NCBI GenBank assembly: GCA_017464345.1
Contig: JAFUAH010000027.1
Location: forward strand, 1 to 64,000
Direction: 5' to 3'
From: Bacteroidaceae bacterium
Lineage (GTDB): Bacteria > Bacteroidota > Bacteroidia > Bacteroidales > Bacteroidaceae
Length of the DNA stretch: 64,000 nt
The notes under the pieces are model-generated. The model ran no database searches. It was not told where the DNA came from and saw nothing but the letters and a program-made list of their open reading frames with translations. Both the position numbers and the translations under genes were made by a program. Positions 1 through 10,133 of the stretch are shown here, in pieces; positions within the stretch are counted from its first letter, which is position 1; each line of letters begins with the position of its first letter.

Positions 1-1
1 A

Positions 2-1219
2 ATCGAATTTGAGAATTTCTTTTCTATTAGAGATAGAATAAGAATCGACTTCAGAGCAGGAAACATCAATACAGCTCTTGCACGGGAGTTAAGCCATAAT
101 GTGATGGAGTGGAACGGTGTGCCCGTACTTAAAACTATTGGCCTGTTTGGGCCTAATGCTTCTGGCAAATCGAATATTCTGAAAGCCATTACTTTTTGCT
201 GTAGAATGATTTTGGAGTCACACCTCTACAACGAAGGTGCGACATTCAATTTCGAGCCTTTCAAATTTGATGGCTGGCAAGATAGATCAAGTAAGTTCTT
301 GATTGATTTTGTGTACGATGGAGTGGAATACGAATATGCTTTTGAATTAACACATGATCATATCATCAGTGAAAGTCTATATCATTACCCAGTTGGCAGA
401 CGTGCAAAAATCTTTGTTCGCGACGCTGACGGAAAATACAGCTTTGGTACAGGCGTTATGGCTAAGCCTTCGGATGTGGTTACAAACACCAGTGAAAAGA
501 ACCTTTTCCTAAGTCGTGCCAGCTCTATGAACCGTGATATAGCACAAAAGTTATATCGTTATTTCATGAATCAATTCCTGCTGGGGCTTGTGAACGTAAA
601 CGATATGATGGTGCTGGATAGTTTCAATGCCTACAAGAAGGTGATACTTAAAGCACTTGAAATATGCGATACAGATATTACTGACATCGAGGCAAGGAAA
701 GAGCAAATGCCTGCTCCTGTAGTTGTTCCTGGTCAAACAGAACTATCATACAAACTGGTGGATGTGCTTCGCTTCAAGACGTACCATCGCAACCAAAAGG
801 ACATTATGTTCGACATGGACATGGAAGAATCTAATGGTACAAGAAAACTATTCCAGATTCTGATACGACTCTTGGATGTGGTAAAGAATAAGAAGAGCAT
901 CATGATGGACGAGTTTGACATGGGATTGCACACTCGTCTAGCTGATTTCATTCTCGACTTGATTCATGCTTCAGAAAGCAGTCAGTTATTGTTCACGTCC
1001 CACAACACGAACCTTATCGATGTCAAACGACTGAGACGTGACCAGATTGTTTTTGTCAACAAGTCGGAACAAGGTGCAACGGAAGTGTATTCATTATACG
1101 ACTTCAAGGATTTCCGTGAGAATATGGATGCCGAAAAGGGATATATACAAGGACGCTTTGATGCTGTGCCTTATATTGATTCATCGGTATCAAGTATCAA
1201 ACAATTATTGGAAGATTGA
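2..1219 (+). CDS. AAA_15/AAA_21-type ATPase (RloA/AbiLi-like), 5'-truncated
   Basis: ABC/SMC-like P-loop ATPase of the kind that serves as the sensor half of two-gene defence modules. The frame is open back to base 2 with no stop, so the gene starts left of the window; the GTG/ATG at 101/104 is internal, because the upstream residues (IEFENFFSIRDRI...) are the usual N-terminal strand of this family. Walker A is GPNASGKSN (about 148-174). Walker B is IMMDEFD (about 898-918), followed by a TSHN switch histidine near 1000. Stop and next start are 2 nt apart, so it is co-transcribed with the RloB-like gene. Family precedent (RloA/RloB, AbiL, the analogous AriA/AriB of PARIS) suggests it holds a Toprim nuclease in check until a phage trigger. 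The family is clear; the defence role is inferred. Confidence 0.82.
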   Translation: MEFENFFSIRDRIRIDFRAGNINTALARELSHNVMEWNGVPVLKTIGLFGPNASGKSNILKAITFCCRMILESHLYNEGATFNFEPFKFDGWQDRSSKFLIDFVYDGVEYEYAFELTHDHIISESLYHYPVGRRAKIFVRDADGKYSFGTGVMAKPSDVVTNTSEKNLFLSRASSMNRDIAQKLYRYFMNQFLLGLVNVNDMMVLDSFNAYKKVILKALEICDTDITDIEARKEQMPAPVVVPGQTELSYKLVDVLRFKTYHRNQKDIMFDMDMEESNGTRKLFQILIRLLDVVKNKKSIMMDEFDMGLHTRLADFILDLIHASESSQLLFTSHNTNLIDVKRLRRDQIVFVNKSEQGATEVYSLYDFKDFRENMDAEKGYIQGRFDAVPYIDSSVSSIKQLLED

Positions 1220-1221
1220 TT

Positions 1222-1782
1222 ATGGCAAGCAAAAGAGAGCCGTCACCATCTTTGCGAATGCGAAAGATTGCCCTTGTTATTTGCGAGGGCGAGACAGAGG
1301 TCTGCTATATCAACCTTCTAAAATCGTGGCATAAGTCACCCATCAGAATCATTTCGCACATAGAAGGTACAAAGATCACACCATCGTTGGTTGAGAAGCG
1401 TACAAAGGAACTCAAAATCTCACAATGGGATAAGGTGCACACATTCCTCATGTACGACATGGATGTGCAGGCCATCAATGAGAAATTGCAGAAATGTAAG
1501 GCAGAAATGCTGCTTAGCAATCCTTGTTTTGAAATATGGCTGCTACTTCATGCCAAAGACCAAAAGGCTGCAATCGAAACGGACGCCCTCATCAAAGAGT
1601 TGAAGAAAAGCGCTCCCGTGTGGAAGAATTATTCTAAATCGGCTTTTACCGACACACAAAAGGCATACTTGAATGACAATACTGACTTGGCTGTTACAAG
1701 AGCCAAAAAACTATGCGAGTTCCAGAATCCTTCAACTGGGATTTACAGATTAATCGAACTCCTTAAAGAAAATAACAAATAA
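1222..1782 (+). CDS. RloB-like Toprim-fold protein (AbiLii-like putative nuclease)
   Basis: 186-aa protein of the RloB family, the usual partner of the ATPase just upstream. Visible motifs are an acidic strand-turn CEGETE (residues 21-26), an acidic pair in YDMD (78-81), and the family signature SNPCFEIWLLLH (99-110). Together they fit a Toprim-type metal centre (Glu plus DxD). The ATG at 1222 is chosen over the TTG at 1216 because GGAAG lies 7 nt upstream of it and the TTG overlaps the previous stop. In AbiL-like and PARIS-like systems the Toprim partner is the toxic effector released after infection; that role is inferred here. The family call is fairly secure. Confidence 0.8.
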   Translation: MASKREPSPSLRMRKIALVICEGETEVCYINLLKSWHKSPIRIISHIEGTKITPSLVEKRTKELKISQWDKVHTFLMYDMDVQAINEKLQKCKAEMLLSNPCFEIWLLLHAKDQKAAIETDALIKELKKSAPVWKNYSKSAFTDTQKAYLNDNTDLAVTRAKKLCEFQNPSTGIYRLIELLKENNK

Positions 1783-1785
1783 GAT

Positions 1786-4674
1786 ATGAGCCATATAGAA
1801 TCTGTTTTTGAAAGTAAATCAAAAGAAAATGCGGAAGCAGGAAAGTATCTGCAGCAATGGCATGTAGCAAAAACTCATGTACCTCAATTGTTGAATACTA
1901 TTTCTCACTATTTCCCTCATTATAGTTTGCATGACTCAACTCATTCGGAGACCATACTAAATAACATCGAACTTATAATGGGGGCGGAGGTAATAGATAA
2001 GTTATCTATCGTCGATTTGTGGTTATTATTATCGGCATCATATTATCATGATTTAGGGATGGTGATAACTCGTGATGATAAGTTGGAATGCTTGAAGGAA
2101 GGATCTGCGTTTATCAACTATGTAAGAAGTAAGCAGAACGATGAGACATCACCAATGCACAACTATGCTCTTTGTTTTGAAATAAAGGACAACAAACTTT
2201 TTCATAAGAATAATGAGATAACTCCTGAGAACATAGATGCTCAAAAATTTTTGTTCGCAGACTATATAAGACAAGAACATGCTAATAGGGCTACTGCTCG
2301 TATTCAACATGAGGGGTCAATGCACCTACCGGGAAGTAGTATTCCTGAAAGAATTATCAGAATACTTGGGAATATATGTAAAGCTCATGGACAAAAGCAG
2401 AAAGACCTACTGGAATTAGCTCAAGAAGAGAATTCTGGATGTGGCACGGAAAAATGTCATCCTTTGTTTGTCGCATGCATGTTGCGGTTAGGAGATCTGC
2501 TTGATGTTGATACAAATAGGGTATCCAAAGTCTTGCTGAGTTCACTGACCAGCATTCCTTCTGACTCTTTGCTGTATAACCAAACGAATAGGGACATTAC
2601 TCATATCAATATAGGACGCAAACTGATAGAAATTTCAGCAGAATGTGAAGACATTAAAGTGGCTAATCTTTTAAACGACTGGTTTAAAATGATTGACGTT
2701 GAGTTACAATTTCAAAGTAGGAATTGGTATAAGATAGCTCCGTCTATTGATTTTGGTTCTCTACCATCTGCCGGAAAACTAATCGTGAGACTGAAAGGAT
2801 ATGATGATATCAGTGGAAAGAACAGACCACGATTTGAGATAAATTCATTGAAGGCCATTGAAATGTTGCAAGGAGCTGGATTATACAATGATGCAAGTCA
2901 GAGTATACGGGAACTGCTGCAAAACGCAGTAGATGCCACCTACATCCGCGTCTTCATGGAGAATCCGACTCTTTCTGATAGAAGCGAGTTTAGAAAGAAA
3001 TGCGCTGAACACGTAATTAACGTCGAACTTAACAAATTGGCAGTAGAGGTGAATCGTGTAAAGTGGCATTTGAAAATACAAGATCAAGGTGTTGGTATAG
3101 CTCCAGATGAGGTCATATACCTAACACGAACTGGTAGCTCGAGCCAAAATCAAAAAAAGAATGATATCTGTAAGAAAATGCCTTCTTGGATGCGTCCATC
3201 TGGTGCATTTGGTATTGGATTTCAAAGCATTTTCCTTATAACGGATAAAGTCACCTTAGTCACTAGAAAATGGGGCACTGATGATGTTGTTAAATTGGAA
3301 ATGTGGAACCCATCTGGCAATGAAAAAGGCAATATTTTACAAAAAACTTACAAAGACGAATTTACGAATTTCGGCACCATTATAGACTGTGACTTATATT
3401 TTGACATGCATTCAGGATGGACTGTACACTCTAATGAAAAGGTGTCATTGGAGACAATAGGAAATTTTGACTTTGCCGTTGATGAATCTTTAGATATACA
3501 AGCTGCTAAACTTATTGATGAGATTAATAAATTTGCAGAGCAAACCAATGTTGGTATTCATTTCAAGATGAATAACAAAGAGTATGACTTTGCCGTTAAA
3601 GAAGAAGATGCATACGACTATTATGATGAGGAAACAGGCTATGAAGTAAGAATAGGGTCTCAATACAGAAAGACAGCTTTATATTACAGGAATCAGTATG
3701 TAGAAAAATTCAATAGCAATATTGAGTTACTAAATTTTAGTGTCAATATCTTAAGTGGCAAAGCAACAGAACTACTAGAGTTGAGTCGAAATAATGTCTT
3801 GAAGGAAAAGAAAGAAGAAATTTCTGAAAATGTACTTAAAGCAGTTCTCAGATATTTGATATCAAAATATGAATTACTAGACAAAGAGATTAAAGACCCG
3901 ATAACCAAGCTCAAACCATTGGCTGCTGCTATATTGGAAGAAAACCGTGAATATATAGAAACACACAACATAGAAACCAACGGTTCCTTGCCAAACGACT
4001 GGATGTCGTTAGATTTTTTGGGGAAATATGCTGGTGTTGACGAGAAAAAATCTATCGGACAATTATTCCAATTTGGCAGAGCTGAATTTTGGAATAACGC
4101 TAATTCTGAATTGCGTTTTTATAATAAGAAAAACAAAAAGTCGCCATTTGTTATAAGTCAAAATGGTTTAAATACTCAACCGGAATGCTTTGACTTCCTG
4201 AAATTCGTACTTGGTCGGCATTTAACAAATCTTGTATACACCTCTGAGTGTATAGTTCTTTCAAAAGACAGTGACAAGGAACTTATCGCAGATACAAAAG
4301 AAGCAAAGCTAAGATGGTTTAAGAACTATCTAAATGGTGGAACTTATGCCAGAGGTTACATGCCCTGTTTGAAAAAGTATTCAAGCCTAAGGCTGAAAGA
4401 TATTAGTCATGAGTCTACATTCCGTAATTTTGGGGCGACATACCCAGTCATGATATGCCCATACGTAAAAACATCAACAGAAATCTTATCTGTATTCTTT
4501 ACCCATAGAAGTTTAGAATTTAGGGCAGACGAAAAGGTAGTTGATTATATCTACAATCACCGCTATAGTGAGGAAATTTCTAGGGAGCAGATAAAGGATA
4601 AGTTAAAAGAGTTCCAGGAAGAGTTCCAGCCTATAGTTGACGAGATAAATTCTTCTATCAATAAAAAGAGGTAA
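1786..4674 (+). CDS. HD-domain plus Hsp90/GHKL-type ATPase, large defence-like protein
   Basis: 962 aa. The N-terminus has an HD metal-site pattern: H53 (HDSTHSE), then YYHDLGM with H88-D89, then LRLGDLLDVD. The middle carries a GHKL (Hsp90/MutL/histidine-kinase type) ATP site: N-box ELLQNAVDA (E376, N380, D383), G1 box DQGVGIAPDE (D433, G435, G437) and G2/lid GAFGIGFQS (473-481). The last ~400 residues match no domain I recognise. The spacing after RloB is 3 nt and before the next gene 3 nt, so it is one transcription unit. It could be an ATP-gated HD nucleotidase or nuclease. It is often mis-called HtpG from the ATP site alone, but the HD region and overall layout do not fit the chaperone. 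The domains are clear; the function is unknown. Confidence 0.75.
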   Translation: MSHIESVFESKSKENAEAGKYLQQWHVAKTHVPQLLNTISHYFPHYSLHDSTHSETILNNIELIMGAEVIDKLSIVDLWLLLSASYYHDLGMVITRDDKLECLKEGSAFINYVRSKQNDETSPMHNYALCFEIKDNKLFHKNNEITPENIDAQKFLFADYIRQEHANRATARIQHEGSMHLPGSSIPERIIRILGNICKAHGQKQKDLLELAQEENSGCGTEKCHPLFVACMLRLGDLLDVDTNRVSKVLLSSLTSIPSDSLLYNQTNRDITHINIGRKLIEISAECEDIKVANLLNDWFKMIDVELQFQSRNWYKIAPSIDFGSLPSAGKLIVRLKGYDDISGKNRPRFEINSLKAIEMLQGAGLYNDASQSIRELLQNAVDATYIRVFMENPTLSDRSEFRKKCAEHVINVELNKLAVEVNRVKWHLKIQDQGVGIAPDEVIYLTRTGSSSQNQKKNDICKKMPSWMRPSGAFGIGFQSIFLITDKVTLVTRKWGTDDVVKLEMWNPSGNEKGNILQKTYKDEFTNFGTIIDCDLYFDMHSGWTVHSNEKVSLETIGNFDFAVDESLDIQAAKLIDEINKFAEQTNVGIHFKMNNKEYDFAVKEEDAYDYYDEETGYEVRIGSQYRKTALYYRNQYVEKFNSNIELLNFSVNILSGKATELLELSRNNVLKEKKEEISENVLKAVLRYLISKYELLDKEIKDPITKLKPLAAAILEENREYIETHNIETNGSLPNDWMSLDFLGKYAGVDEKKSIGQLFQFGRAEFWNNANSELRFYNKKNKKSPFVISQNGLNTQPECFDFLKFVLGRHLTNLVYTSECIVLSKDSDKELIADTKEAKLRWFKNYLNGGTYARGYMPCLKKYSSLRLKDISHESTFRNFGATYPVMICPYVKTSTEILSVFFTHRSLEFRADEKVVDYIYNHRYSEEISREQIKDKLKEFQEEFQPIVDEINSSINKKR

Positions 4675-4677
4675 TAC

Positions 4678-5685
4678 ATGATTAGAAAATCCATCATATT
4701 CACCGATGTACCACTGCTAAAGGCATTCCAGTATAGGGAATTATTTCAATTGGTGCCGTTCTTCTATTTTGAGGGAATGCCATTTTCGAAGTATTCTAGA
4801 CATTTCCCTGCTGTACTAGAATATGAGTGCGAAGATAAGGAAGAGGCTCTGCCTATGGAGGCCGAACTGCTGAATCGTGGTCTCAGCGAAGATGTGGTGA
4901 AACTTGGAAGAACTCTACCAGAGTCGCAACGGGTTAAGCGCGAAATATTGCATCTGTTGACTGCATTGACCAATTATTGTTTCTTTGAATATAATGCAAG
5001 CGTGGGATACTATGGTGTTCAGGCTCCGATGGGTGATTTTAGCACTTTATCTCCCAAAGAAACCGAGAAGTTCAATAATCAAATAAGTCATTGGACGATT
5101 CCTGCATATTTGTACCCAAAGGTTGGGGAAGTACTTCAACAACAAACGTTCACGGATTGCACTGAATTTTGTGAAGAGGCAACAAACTTTATGGACTATT
5201 ATACCAATAATCCGGAAGCAGACCATCAAAAGCAAATACAGTTTCCTCCGGCTATGGAGTTCTGCCTAGACAGATATATTGCTATGCGAGGCGATATGCG
5301 CAAAGGCGTAAGACATTGCATCTCATTACTGGCTGATGGCGTGGAGTCCTTTAATTATAAGCGAAGTGTATCAACAATGGCGACCATAGCTTCTATCGAG
5401 GGTATGGCTAATATTGATTTCAAACTATATGGAACGGCAGACGAAACAAATAGGCCGACTGCACGTTTCATTAGGTATTTGAAACGATATGTTGCTGGAC
5501 GTTCAGAGGAAAAATACAAACAGTATTACAGTAGGCGTGGTGAAATCTGCCATGATGGGAGCATATTCCTCGGTGACGATGATCTCTATGGAGATATCAC
5601 TGAACAAGATAGAGATTGGTTACTTAGACTTGAGATACAACAAGCAGCGCGAATTGCTTTGTATAATTGGTTAAGAAGAAATTAG
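4678..5685 (+). CDS. Uncharacterised protein with C-terminal HEPN RNase motif
   Basis: 335 aa. I do not recognise the N-terminal ~200 residues. The C-terminus has the HEPN-type catalytic pattern RxxxxH followed by D-G: R287-GEIC-H292-DG, preceded by a tyrosine/arginine-rich helix and followed by a helix (EIQQAARIALYNWL) as in Apea-like HEPN domains. HEPN domains of this kind are mostly metal-independent RNases used in abortive-infection and toxin systems. An RBS (AAAGAGGT) precedes the ATG, and the gap to the HD/GHKL gene is 3 nt, so these two proteins are very likely partners. No signal peptide or membrane segment. The motif is visible; RNase activity and defence role are inferred. Confidence 0.65.
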   Translation: MIRKSIIFTDVPLLKAFQYRELFQLVPFFYFEGMPFSKYSRHFPAVLEYECEDKEEALPMEAELLNRGLSEDVVKLGRTLPESQRVKREILHLLTALTNYCFFEYNASVGYYGVQAPMGDFSTLSPKETEKFNNQISHWTIPAYLYPKVGEVLQQQTFTDCTEFCEEATNFMDYYTNNPEADHQKQIQFPPAMEFCLDRYIAMRGDMRKGVRHCISLLADGVESFNYKRSVSTMATIASIEGMANIDFKLYGTADETNRPTARFIRYLKRYVAGRSEEKYKQYYSRRGEICHDGSIFLGDDDLYGDITEQDRDWLLRLEIQQAARIALYNWLRRN

Positions 5686-5757
5686 AAACAATCCAACACT
5701 GCTACGCATTATAGGGAAAAAAACTTAGGACAACATGAAACATGAGGATGTCAATTG

Positions 5758-5782
5758 TTACTGCTACATGGAATAGCAGTAA
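5758..5782. repeat. Perfect 9-bp inverted repeat downstream of the defence operon
   Basis: TTACTGCTA and TAGCAGTAA flank a 7-nt loop, 73 nt after the last stop of the defence operon. No U-run follows, so it is not a classic terminator. It could stabilise the mRNA 3' end or mark the island boundary. Confidence 0.45.
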
Positions 5783-5829
5783 GACATTCAAGAAAAATCA
5801 TCAGGTTTGTGAATTTTTCTGTGTTTTCT

Positions 5830-5861
5830 TTTGGTTGTTTGGGGAGAAATATGTACCTTTG
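5830..5861 (+). promoter_or_regulatory. Bacteroidetes sigma-ABfr-type promoter
   Basis: TTTG at 5830-5833, 20-nt spacer, perfect TACCTTTG at 5854-5861. Predicted start near 5868. It reads into a stretch with no gene that ends at the terminator at 6001-6045. Confidence 0.65.
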
Positions 5862-5867
5862 CAGTGA

Positions 5868-6044
5868 TTTTGTAACATGTTGATTATCAATGGTTATTTC
5901 CGTTTTTGCGACATGTGTGCAACATCCGGTGCTAACGCATTGATAGTCAGTTAAAGTCGTTTTCGAGGAGGTGAAGTAAACAGAAAATTTCAAGTCTATG
6001 GGTATGGCCCTCTGTGCAATGATACACAGAGGACCATACTTTTT
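5868..6044 (+). ncRNA. Candidate small RNA (or short-peptide transcript) in the 5686-6314 gap
   Basis: A consensus promoter and a strong intrinsic terminator bracket about 177 nt with no recognisable gene. Inside are inverted arms TGATTATCAATG (5881-5892) and CATTGATAGTCA (about 5938-5949), 11 of 12 complementary, and near-direct repeats TTGTAACATGT and TTGCGACATGT. A 25-codon ORF (5877-5954, starting ATG TTG ATT) sits almost at the predicted 5' end but has no RBS. This may be a free-standing sRNA or a site-like remnant at the island edge. No known RNA family is recognised. Confidence 0.4.
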
Positions 6045-6045
6045 G
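6001..6045 (+). terminator. Strong rho-independent terminator
   Basis: Arms 6002-6016 and 6025-6039 (GTATGG/CCATAC ends, CCTCTGTG/CACAGAGG core) pair over 15 positions with one mismatch, an 8-nt loop, then TTTTT. It ends the short transcript from the 5854 promoter. Confidence 0.75.
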
Positions 6046-6090
6046 CTTCTCTTTAGGCTTGGGGCTTGCAAAAGAAAAGCGTGAAAATTC

Positions 6091-6314: not shown

Positions 6315-9300
6315 ATGACTAAACTTTTACAATTAAAATCATGGCTCCTATTACTGCTAATGCTTATAGGAGCCAGGGGTGCGTGGGCGGATGATGCATA
6401 TTATACGCTTGATACGACTAATTCAAAAAATGAAACGACAAACAACGGCTATGCGGCCTCTGGTACTGTTACTGTCGGAGGAATAGGATGGACTTTCGAA
6501 GGTAATGGGAAAATAGAGCCTTGGCGTTTAGGAGGTAAAAGTATAACTAAAATTGATCGTACAGCATATACGACAACAGCCATGGGCGCCGCAATAAGCA
6601 AAGTGGACTTAACCGTTGGTGAAGCTTCGAGCATCACGGTTAATTCGTTGAAATTGGTTGTAGCAAGTGACGCTTCGTTTAATAAGGTTATTGATGAAGT
6701 TTCCAAAACTTTTAAAGCTTCCTCTACAATTACTTTTACCCCTACAAGTGGTGATAGTTGGGCAGAAAAAGCTTATTATAAATTCGTTTTTAATGTAACT
6801 GTATCGGGCTCCAGTAATAAATTTGTCGAGTTCAAAAAAGTGGAGTTTTATGCAGCTGCCGCAGATGTCTCTGTTACTGGCGTTTCGTTGAATAAGACTT
6901 CTACCTCTCTCGTTGTGGGTGGTACGGAAACCTTGACCGCTACCGTTGCTCCCGACGATGCAACGAATAAGAACGTTACCTGGGCATCCAGTGATGAAAA
7001 CGTTGCCACGGTTGTCGATGGTGTAGTTACCGCTATTGCTGCCGGGACGACCGATATTACCGTAACGACCGAGGATGGTAGCTATACGGCCACTTGTAAA
7101 GTTACGGTGACGGCTGGAGCTGTAGCCGTTACGGGCGTGTCATTGAACAAGGAAACAACAACCCTACTTGTGGGGGGGGGGGTAGAAACCTTAACGGCTA
7201 CGATTGCTCCCGACGATGCGACGAATAAGAACGTTATCTGGGCATCCAGTGACGAAACAGTTGCCACGGTGGATGAGAGTGGCAAGGTGACTGCTGTAGG
7301 TGTGGGTACGGCTAATATTACCGTAACTACGGTGGATGGTGGTAAGACGGCTACTTGTGCCGTTACTGTGAATCCCGTAGTCGTGGAGAGCGTATCACTG
7401 AACAAAACAGAGACTTCCATCACGGTTAGTGCCACTGAGACTCTGACAGCTACGATTACTCCAGACAATGCAACGAACAAGAACGTTACGTGGACTTCAA
7501 ATGACGAATCCGTAGCCACCGTGGACGGTGGTGTGGTTACCGGTGTTGCTGTTGGTACGGCTACTATCACCGTAACTACCACAGACGGAAGTAAGACTGC
7601 CACTTGCGCAGTGACTGTTGCAGCTGCTCCTTCTGAAGAAACGATTACATTCTCTGAACTTGAATATGCCAATGCAGCAGAAGTAACAACGGTAAATGGA
7701 ACCAATGCAACATTAACATTTGATAAAGGTACGAATAGTAATGCTCCCAAGTATTATACCTCTGGTACAGCTTTGCGCATGTATGGCGGTAACACGATGA
7801 CCGTTACAGCAACAAAGACGATTAAGAAGATTGAACTCACATTTGGATCCAGTGATGGCTCAAATACTATTACGACAGATGTAGATACCTACAGTGATGG
7901 AACCTGGTTGGGTAGCGCAAAGAGTGTTACATTCACTATCGGCGGTTCGACTGGTAACAGACGCTTGAGTAGCGTTAAAATTACTTATGCCCCAGAAGGC
8001 CCTGCTGTTAATGTTACTGGCGTATCGCTGAAGGAATCAACCACGCTCTATGTGGGTGGTACAGAGACCTTGACGGCTATTATAACTCCCGACAATGCAA
8101 CGAACAAGAATGTTACTTGGACATCCAGCAATGAAGCAGTCGCCACGGTTTCCAATGGCGTTGTTACTGCTGTAGCCGTAGGTACGGCCACCATCACGGT
8201 GACTACCGTGGATGGCAGCAAGACCGCTACCTGCTCTGTTACCGTAACCGCTGCCCCCGGTTCGGAGGCACGTCCCTATACCGTGGCAGAGGCTATTGCT
8301 GCCATTGACGCAGGTACTGGTGCTGGTGTGACAGGCGTATATGCCACAGGTATTGTATCGGAAATCGTTACCGCCTATAGTTCTCAGTACGGTAACATTT
8401 CCTACAACATCTCTGCTGACGGCTTAACCACTAGCGCCCAGTTGCAGGCCTATCGTGGTAAGAGTTACAATGGTGTGAACTTCACCAGCGAAGACGATAT
8501 TCAGGTCGGCGACGTAGTAGTTATCTATGGTGATCTGCAAAAATATGGCTCCACATACGAGTTTGGTGCTGGAAACAGTTTGGTATCGCTCGTTCGCAAG
8601 GCCGTTGCCGGTCTGTCCTACGAAACGACTTCGTATAATGCCAACCTTGGTAGTGCTTTTGCTACTCCAGAACTGACGAATCCCCATGACTTGGCAGTAA
8701 ACTACAGCAGTAGCAATACGGGTGTTGCTACCGTGGATGCAGAGACTGGTGCCGTTACTCTCGTGGCTGCCGGTGAGACCACCATCACGGCAACGTTTGC
8801 AGGCAATGCCTCTTATCAGGCAGGCAGTGCATCGTACACACTGACCGTGATAGACCCCAGCGAGCCTGTCGATATCTGCGTGCTCAATAGCATTACGCCC
8901 ACCACATTGACTGTTGGTGACATGGGTGATTTCGTCTTGAGCGCAGATTTCGTAGATGGTGTAGTAGAGGATGATGACTACGAAATCAGTTGGAGCAGTA
9001 GTGATTCTGATATTCTGGAAGTTGCTGGAACAACCTATGAAGCCAAGGCCGCAGGCAAGGTGACTGTAACCGTTCGCGTTGAAGTCCTTGACGAAGACAT
9101 TTATAATAATGTAGAGAAAGCCTTTGAGGTCACCGTAAAAGCTCCCAAGACATACGTTGCTTTGGTGGCAGAGTATGATGGTAAGTTCTATGCATTAAAT
9201 TCTACGTTTAGCAGTAATACCTTTAGCGCAACAGTCGTGAATATTGTTAATCATAAGGTAATTAACGGTCAGACAGATGCTGTTTCATGGTTAGTTACTG

Positions 9301-10133
9301 AAACTGATGGTATGGCAACTATTCTTAATAAGGACGAATGCACATATGTAGGTTTTTCAGGAAAAAACCTTACGACAAGCGAGTCTGACTGGACTGTAGA
9401 TAATACAAATTCCACATGGAATACAGGTGCTAATAGAACTATTCTCTATCGTGAAAGTGCAAATGGATTTAAGAATTATGCAACATCTAATGTCAATAGT
9501 TCGGACTACTCTGGTTACACTACGGCCTACACCTTTGCTGACGGTTACACCCGTGAGGTGACGGGTGGCAACTTTGGTACCATCTGCCTGCCCTATGATG
9601 TGGCTGCCGATGATTTCTGTGGTGTGAACTTCTACCAGATTGCCGCCAAGACGATGAATGGCGAAAAACTGAAGTCTGTCACGCTGGAAGAAGTGACGGA
9701 ACTGGTGGGCGGTGCTGCCTATCTGTTCCAGGCCGACGAAGAGGCAACAAAACTGGTTGCAGCCTACAGCGGTAGTGAGGCTGATGAAGAGATTCCCGCA
9801 GATGTTAGCGGCACGGGTCTGACAGGAACCTACGCCAAGCAGTACATTCCCAAAGGCATGTATATGTTGAAGAATGGTAAACTCTACTATGTAGATGCCG
9901 AAAATTACGTGTATTCGGGTGTCAACAAGGCCTATATCGATTTGACCGATGTTCCTGAGGCTGGAGCCAACGTAAAGGGTATCGAACTCTTCAGCGGCGA
10001 CCTGGAAACGGGTATCCAGTCGGTAGGGGACGAGACTACGGAACGTGTTGTCTATAACCTTTCCGGCCAGCGTGTACAGAAGCCTGTTCGTGGCGTGTAT
10101 GTGGTGAATGGTCAGAAGATTGTAGTGAAGTAA
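6315..10133 (+). CDS. Secreted protein with repeated bacterial Ig-like (BIG2) domains
   Basis: 1272 aa. A signal peptide covers about residues 1-25 (LLLLLMLIGARGAWA). Next comes a beta-rich N-terminal domain (~26-183). BIG2-type repeats lie at about 185-266, 270-352, 355-436 and 566-649, each built around 'GVSLN...GG-ETLTATIxPDxATNKNVTW'. A further domain at ~440-560, an OB-like DUF6359-type segment at ~650-760 and a divergent Ig-like repeat at ~765-848 follow. The C-terminus (YNLSGQR...VVNGQKIVVK) resembles the short type IX-type sorting tail of Prevotella. It is probably a surface or exported adhesive or carbohydrate-associated protein; no catalytic site is seen. An 11-G run (7172-7182) lies in the second repeat and keeps frame at this length. 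Confidence 0.8.
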   Translation: MTKLLQLKSWLLLLLMLIGARGAWADDAYYTLDTTNSKNETTNNGYAASGTVTVGGIGWTFEGNGKIEPWRLGGKSITKIDRTAYTTTAMGAAISKVDLTVGEASSITVNSLKLVVASDASFNKVIDEVSKTFKASSTITFTPTSGDSWAEKAYYKFVFNVTVSGSSNKFVEFKKVEFYAAAADVSVTGVSLNKTSTSLVVGGTETLTATVAPDDATNKNVTWASSDENVATVVDGVVTAIAAGTTDITVTTEDGSYTATCKVTVTAGAVAVTGVSLNKETTTLLVGGGVETLTATIAPDDATNKNVIWASSDETVATVDESGKVTAVGVGTANITVTTVDGGKTATCAVTVNPVVVESVSLNKTETSITVSATETLTATITPDNATNKNVTWTSNDESVATVDGGVVTGVAVGTATITVTTTDGSKTATCAVTVAAAPSEETITFSELEYANAAEVTTVNGTNATLTFDKGTNSNAPKYYTSGTALRMYGGNTMTVTATKTIKKIELTFGSSDGSNTITTDVDTYSDGTWLGSAKSVTFTIGGSTGNRRLSSVKITYAPEGPAVNVTGVSLKESTTLYVGGTETLTAIITPDNATNKNVTWTSSNEAVATVSNGVVTAVAVGTATITVTTVDGSKTATCSVTVTAAPGSEARPYTVAEAIAAIDAGTGAGVTGVYATGIVSEIVTAYSSQYGNISYNISADGLTTSAQLQAYRGKSYNGVNFTSEDDIQVGDVVVIYGDLQKYGSTYEFGAGNSLVSLVRKAVAGLSYETTSYNANLGSAFATPELTNPHDLAVNYSSSNTGVATVDAETGAVTLVAAGETTITATFAGNASYQAGSASYTLTVIDPSEPVDICVLNSITPTTLTVGDMGDFVLSADFVDGVVEDDDYEISWSSSDSDILEVAGTTYEAKAAGKVTVTVRVEVLDEDIYNNVEKAFEVTVKAPKTYVALVAEYDGKFYALNSTFSSNTFSATVVNIVNHKVINGQTDAVSWLVTETDGMATILNKDECTYVGFSGKNLTTSESDWTVDNTNSTWNTGANRTILYRESANGFKNYATSNVNSSDYSGYTTAYTFADGYTREVTGGNFGTICLPYDVAADDFCGVNFYQIAAKTMNGEKLKSVTLEEVTELVGGAAYLFQADEEATKLVAAYSGSEADEEIPADVSGTGLTGTYAKQYIPKGMYMLKNGKLYYVDAENYVYSGVNKAYIDLTDVPEAGANVKGIELFSGDLETGIQSVGDETTERVVYNLSGQRVQKPVRGVYVVNGQKIVVK
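7172..7182 (+). repeat. G11 homopolymer inside a BIG2 repeat
   Basis: Eleven consecutive G fall in codons ~286-290. The corresponding place in the sister repeats reads GTGGGTGGTACG, and this repeat has one extra residue. Long poly-G inside a surface-protein gene is a classic slipped-strand phase-variation site. A read or assembly artefact is the alternative. Confidence 0.7.

Follow-up and report, generated by a model that had tools for sequence, protein, structure and literature searches.

The 64,000 nt window analysed here, which comprises the first 64 kb of contig JAFUAH010000027.1 (C17; starting at contig base 1) from a Bacteroidaceae bacterium assembly (1.9 Mb, 61% complete), begins with four genes that are best read as a composite, probably antiphage locus. 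According to this reading, to which we assign a probability of about 55% on the basis of the comparisons described below, an AbiL/RloA-RloB gene pair represents the backbone, while an exchangeable cargo slot extends from the 3′ end of rloB to a conserved right end of ~178 bp; the cargo carried in the window would consist of a fusion of an HD domain and an Hsp90-type ATPase (ORF3) and of a second protein, ORF4. The locus should accordingly be viewed as a fixed antiviral pair followed by a slot with genome-dependent genes and visible exchange points. Two elements of this reading were unexpected, i.e. a slot with recognizable borders behind RloAB and an HD-Hsp90 protein that is a candidate in its own right.

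The first two genes of the locus (rloA, 2–1219, and rloB, 1222–1782, both on the + strand) were matched by Pfam and PADLOC as an AbiLi-type ABC ATPase gene (AAA_21, 5.9e-27; AbiLi, 5.5e-77) followed by an AbiLii/RloB gene (RloB, 6.9e-27; AbiLii, 3.6e-23). These profile matches identify them as an AbiL/RloA-RloB pair, in agreement with an initial annotation made from the DNA sequence alone. AbiL/RloA-RloB is known as a two-gene system; here, genes 1 and 2 fit that system, with two further genes in the same operon and other genes in this position in other genomes. The start of rloB was assigned to the ATG at 1222 (alternative TTG at 1216), and rloA is open at its 5′ end owing to truncation by the contig edge, as the window starts with IEFENFF and its relatives with MILKIEFENFF, so that approximately four codons are missing. 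Gene 1 also matched the AriA model of PARIS (AriA-AriB; 1e-24), yet membership of PARIS was rejected because the AbiLi match is far better and gene 2 is matched by RloB/AbiLii only, rather than by the AriB (DUF4435) partner. A search with RloB returned matches in 52 of the 399 genomes of the family (the window's own genome counted, and many matches weak), and flanking sequences were fetched for 12 of these places. Among the collected loci (designated here by L numbers), RloA identity to the window was 98.8% for L186, 97.0% for L187, 85.9% for L188 and 85.7% for L189.

Evidence for an exchange of the cargo was obtained by comparing the window with locus L057, the two sharing 86% identity in rloA and 88% in rloB, compared with 99.6% in ORF3 and 99.5% in ORF4 (gap columns counted). 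The final difference within rloB is located at position 1731 and the next at 1986, and this jump in identity at the end of rloB indicates that the cargo was exchanged as a block relative to RloAB, with the 3′ tail of rloB as the left exchange border. In L186, the backbone is window-like (95.3% over 1–1769, homology ending at 1769, with 99.1% in the right-end core) and the cargo is L191-like (93.6% over 5065 nt), the rloB tail and right end of L191 being only 80–83% identical to those of the window and L186. Judged by these identities, L186 is a mosaic, and the cargo differs in history from the backbone in two instances, the other being the window/L057 comparison. The rloB-tail identities of L186 and L191 to the other loci were not used, since their rloB runs on and places them out of register; in L191 and L197 the contig edge falls within rloB, where both loci begin. 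The simplest cause of these exchanges would be homologous recombination within the conserved flanks, and no integrase or phage gene was seen in the RloAB-cargo unit. On the left side, homology among L057, L186 and L187 extends only 117–138 nt upstream of rloA, and the comparison established neither a left boundary nor a terminal repeat or target duplication.

The genes behind RloAB vary accordingly, with L186 and L191 carrying a 745-aa AAA ATPase gene, a gene for a 337–342-aa protein and further genes, L187 encoding a 586-aa protein that matches SEFIR (5y8e, E=1.1e-17) and L188 a 288-aa protein, while L197 has no + strand ORF (open reading frame) of at least 70 aa in the 0.8 kb after rloB. Searches of the 288-aa cargo protein of L188 and the 745-aa cargo protein of L191 against PDB sequences gave no matches; by eye, the 288-aa protein looks RES-like and the 337-aa protein WYL-like. 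The distance from rloB to the cargo is 3 nt in the window and L057, 17 nt in L188 and 118 nt in L187, with a 4-nt overlap in L186 and L191.

The right border of the slot is represented by the ~178-bp right end (5802–5979), which recurs at 80–99% identity in eight loci. It follows the cargo in L057, L186, L187, L188, L191 and L197, with divergence beyond it, and is also present in L170 and L172, where rloB consists of its last ~29 codons; in the next 1.5 kb, homology at an E value of 1e-3 was observed in 0/21 pairs. Among the 198 collected loci, which include duplicates and were chosen largely by RloB, ORF3 and ORF4 searches rather than as an unbiased survey, the right end is confined to places with adjoining RloA/RloB sequence. 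L189 and the more distantly related RloAB loci L190 and L192–L196 lack it. It is present as a single copy in the genome of the window, and was not found in plasmids (as a whole) or in viral contigs (as its core). A promoter-like TAnnTTTG was noted by eye, and one strand was predicted to form a long hairpin (z=−2.45, with 4/200 shuffles equally stable), for which covariation gave no support (both partners altered in 1/36 pairs; covariation term +0.58). Assignment to a known RNA was rejected, the only matches being two to snoRNAs below the gathering score. Just past the right end, at 6001–6050, lies a strong terminator-like hairpin followed by T residues, and several relatives possess their own, different hairpin just after the right end (by eye).

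The first cargo gene, ORF3 (1786–4674, + strand, 962 aa), was found to encode an HD-CE domain (aa 43–307; Pfam 2.4e-46) followed by N-terminal and middle domains of the Hsp90 type (about aa 353–720) and by a further C-terminal part, the Hsp90 domains being observed in both profile and structure searches (HATPase_c_3, 4.4e-6; Hsp90 chains matched by the N domain with a profile E value of about 1e-14). The HD-GHKL ATPase proposed in the initial annotation is thus confirmed and sharpened: the ATPase is Hsp90-type, with an N plus a middle domain. Conservation was assessed in an alignment of 33 rows, consisting of the window and 32 of 54 genome loci. The HD-CE residues H49, H88, D89, H165, H201 and D237, among them candidate catalytic positions, are invariant (33/33), and HD-CE was matched by all 14 ORF3 relatives examined. 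The ATPase part exhibits the features of a Bergerat ATP-binding N domain (E376, N380, and DxGxG and GxG motifs), with N380 and residues 433, 437, 476 and 478 retained in 33/33 rows and G435 in 32/33, while the middle domain carries the catalytic arginine loop, with R668 invariant on the loop LNVSRE. ORF3 thereby resembles the Hsp90 proteins HtpG and TRAP1 in aa 353–720, including R668, and differs from them in its additional N-terminal HD-CE domain. The Hsp90 matches stop at ~720, and no Hsp90 C-terminal dimerization domain was identified in ORF3, whose structure model is poor over 700–850. Searched against PDB sequences, the HD part gave a best E value of 0.086 (phosphodiesterase 8A), which is not significant.

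Several other labels for ORF3 were rejected. A PADLOC match to TmtA was obtained in 3/33 rows and in 0/9 rows when rescanned singly, and a literature search gave no explanation of the name. The DRT (RT_UG24) model was matched by the HD region only (query 40–252, profile 693–883), with no Pfam reverse transcriptase domain, and for Shedu type I-D the DUF4263 nuclease domain was absent from the Pfam scan.

To place ORF3 in its wider context, relatives were collected from one genome per species (84,980 species, 54 loci) and from viral contigs (26 loci). Among these 80 loci, L057 alone also has ORF4, RloA or RloB, none of which was detected by tblastn in the 79 others, a count that includes contigs ending close by and six viral loci (L142–L147) matching the ATPase part only. 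In L058, the closest ORF3 relative after L057 (58%), ORF4 was not found in the ~9 kb downstream flank. These observations, together with the presence of other genes behind RloAB elsewhere, do not support the suggestion that all four genes act as one conserved system. The alternative offered alongside it, that genes 3 and 4 are a pair of their own, holds for their history, which the identity jump separates from that of genes 1 and 2, and is not supported as regards an obligate partnership: ORF4 was not detected in the 79 other ORF3 loci, nor ORF3 in 13 ORF4 loci. In a tree of the 33 ORF3 rows, phylum labels require nine changes, compared with a minimum possible of six, although stray contigs in bins may contribute. 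A relative was furthermore present in each of 11 plasmid records, with at least 80% of the query covered in one case, and in one faecal scaffold labelled phage.

The neighbours of ORF3 relatives were scanned with Pfam in ten loci picked by eye and in ten more, two of the second ten lacking a Pfam match. In L059, L060 and L070, ORF3 is situated within type I restriction operons and adjoins type I restriction subunits. DNA methylases occur near the relatives in L063, L065 and L068, and in L066 at ~2.2 kb on the other strand, whereas a single MUG113 match in a neighbour in L063 does not by itself mean restriction. A ResIII/T5orf172 protein (L093), AbiEii (L105), an MNT-HepT pair (L075) and Eco57I enzymes (L077 and L106) were also observed nearby. 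When restriction-modification-like ORFs were counted with same-locus matches removed, 13 were found within 3 kb of ORF3 (8/53 loci, 260 kb) vs none beyond 5 kb (315 kb), the queries having been taken from the near set, with a resulting bias towards near matches. Some relatives sit in prophages, and the relative in L126 has a P2-type gpA (phrog_91) on one side and a portal gene on the other; the gpA-portal interval is an antiphage hotspot in Escherichia coli P2-like phages, according to PMC9122126. The L126 relative itself was not found in E. coli genomes by distant blastn. As regards the question of housekeeping versus defence islands raised in the initial annotation, the defence interpretation was not refuted, and defence-like contexts (restriction-modification, prophage and AbiEii) are supported by gene neighbourhood for part of the ORF3 family.

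Some loci showed arrangements of their own. On a faecal scaffold labelled phage (L046, 483–6537), the genes that come after an HD-CE gene encode an AAA_21 ATPase and a 266-aa protein with no Pfam match, and in L074 the ORF3 relative comes after AAA-type genes. A Pectobacterium relative (L082, 7053–8821 and 12959–14982) has the same neighbouring genes repeated on its two sides, as might result from entry by target-region duplication, and that of L077 (83–6435) has a methylase-like ORF on either side, as though it had interrupted a restriction-modification gene. In L101 (1273–5156), from a Prevotella metagenome-assembled genome (MAG), a TIR/SEFIR gene precedes a divergent HD-Hsp90 gene by 5 nt, possibly as a separate two-gene system, while in two Acidobacteria MAGs (L098, 1475–4663, and L103, 3–2939) a divergent HD-Hsp90 gene is directly followed by the same 193-aa gene, whose product has no Pfam match.

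The second cargo gene, ORF4 (4678–5685, + strand, 335 aa), encodes a putative HEPN ribonuclease. The HEPN assignment made in the initial annotation is upheld at the level of the R-x4-6-H motif, R287 and H292 (R-x4-H) being retained in 11/11 rows, which include the window and its near-twin L057 and exclude L050 (gap over R) and L053 (fragment). It gained no backing from family searches, as no HEPN match was found in Pfam, PADLOC, NCBIfam, PHROG or PDB sequences, nor from the AlphaFold model, which was built from two near-identical rows and is useless (mean predicted local distance difference test score of 32). The family is rare, occurring in 8/393 genomes in the order, 4/399 in the family and 4/395 in the phylum, counts that include the window's own genome and, for 4/399, two matches via the C-terminal part only; ORF4 was not found in viral contigs, plasmids (for which the relative of L052 was also used) or phage records. 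In 13 loci fetched with ORF4 (5–17 kb), of which 11 have a tblastn-detectable relative, one being a 63-residue fragment, ORF3, RloA and RloB were absent. Other neighbours were present instead. The L047 relative (544–4958) has a 4-nt overlap with a DEAD-helicase/DUF559 gene, with which it possibly forms a two-gene defence unit; a Schlafen AlbA_2 protein is encoded directly upstream of the relative in L048 and three genes upstream in L115, and AIPR neighbours the relative in L149.

On this basis, ORF3 is proposed to act in defence on its own, with an Hsp90-type, ATP-driven dimerizing clamp that would sense infection and gate an N-terminal HD phosphohydrolase acting on a nucleotide or other phosphoester. 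By cleaving RNA, ORF4 may provide a second means of arresting growth, and RloAB, on the same transcript, would work as its own ATPase-nuclease abortive pair. Such coupling of a GHKL ATPase to an effector is plausible because of two precedents. VcSduA (Shedu type I-D, paraMORC3) is a validated antiphage GHKL ATPase fused to a DUF4263 nuclease (PMC12137116); ORF3 shares with it the combination of a GHKL ATPase and a catalytic domain, and differs in having HD instead of DUF4263 and an ATPase that is closest to Hsp90. GHKL/Hsp90-type ATPases are combined with HEPN in paraMORC-HEPN (Ymh) fusions, found near restriction-modification genes, and in sacsin (PMC3710099), whereas here the two are encoded by separate genes, the HD domain is extra and the HEPN assignment is putative. 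The slot recalls the P2/P4 prophage hotspots as outlined in PMC9122126, which have fixed flanks and exchangeable antiphage cargo, with the differences that here a defence gene pair forms one of the flanks and that the unit shows no phage or integrase gene. In the literature within reach, which excluded most subscription papers, neither an HD-Hsp90 antiphage protein nor RloAB with exchangeable cargo was found under a name. The accessible portion of the DefensePredictor paper (PMC13092281) mentions HATPase among predicted systems without further detail, and HD-Hsp90 is not named in those portions of a BREX paper (PMC12839542) and a MORC paper (PMC2292703) that were available.

The arrangement of the slot could also be explained by RloAB serving as a shared sensor or trigger, with swappable plug-in effectors (HD-Hsp90 plus the R-x4-H protein, the SEFIR protein, the 745-aa ATPase set or the 288-aa protein) whose activation would require RloAB or a right-end transcript. 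Such dependence would account for the different genes found at short distances (4-nt overlap to 118 nt) behind the closest RloAB pairs and for the retention of the right end after each cargo, but we regard it as unlikely, as ORF3 relatives lack RloAB in 79/79 other loci, L189 has RloAB without evident cargo, and AbiLi/AbiLii constitute a system of their own in PADLOC. Moreover, L057 has retained its cargo with a broken rloA: at 8138–9434, this gene appears as two overlapping ORFs (81+369 aa) split near the P-loop, with rloB and cargo intact, although an assembly error is possible. A role of RloAB as trigger of the cargo is less likely than one as its own abortive pair, and the varied cargoes found naturally after closely related RloAB pairs make it possible to ask whether the pair controls them. 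Quite unlikely, in our assessment, is the view that the slot is a mere recombination hotspot and that ORF3 assists nearby restriction or Abi proteins in the manner of a chaperone, instead of being an immune effector. The exchange points do lie in conserved flanking sequence, the ATPase half of ORF3 is of the chaperone type, and three relatives are located inside type I restriction operons; nevertheless, an HD site identical in 33/33 rows argues for a catalytic output, and many loci, prophages included, have no adjacent client gene (by eye, from ORF lists).

Against the composite antiphage locus itself stand several observations. A phage phenotype is known for no part of it, and the defence reading is supported by family and context. 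The fold-match lists for ORF3 were filled by Hsp90, so that the HD assignment comes from sequence, and ORF4 as a HEPN ribonuclease is unproven, the assignment being motif-level only. The right end was present in 5/12 of the RloB flanks fetched, and both the right end and any evident cargo are missing from L189 (RloAB 86%). With the cargo starting 3 nt after rloB, translational coupling to RloAB is possible, and the AAA ATPase genes beside the HD-CE gene of L046 and ORF3 of L074 hint at a functional link to ATPases of this kind. Lastly, 45/53 ORF3 loci had no counted restriction-modification neighbour, and the control queries came from the near set. The composite locus remains our preferred reading, and it offers the HD-Hsp90 proteins, with their invariant residues, as specific candidates for defence by a single gene.

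With regard to genomic setting, the ORF coordinates confirmed four + strand ORFs in 2–5685 with intergenic gaps of 2, 3 and 3 nt, and close packing is ordinary for defence genes. The lower GC content noted previously was also reproduced (0.37–0.40 in 1–6000 vs 0.44–0.61 in 6001–64000), the smallest contrast being with the nearest 6 kb (0.44–0.48). Downstream of the locus, a 1272-aa repetitive protein (6315–10133) appears by eye to consist of Ig-like (BIG_2-type) repeats, and is followed by what look like the bL21 and bL27 ribosomal protein genes.

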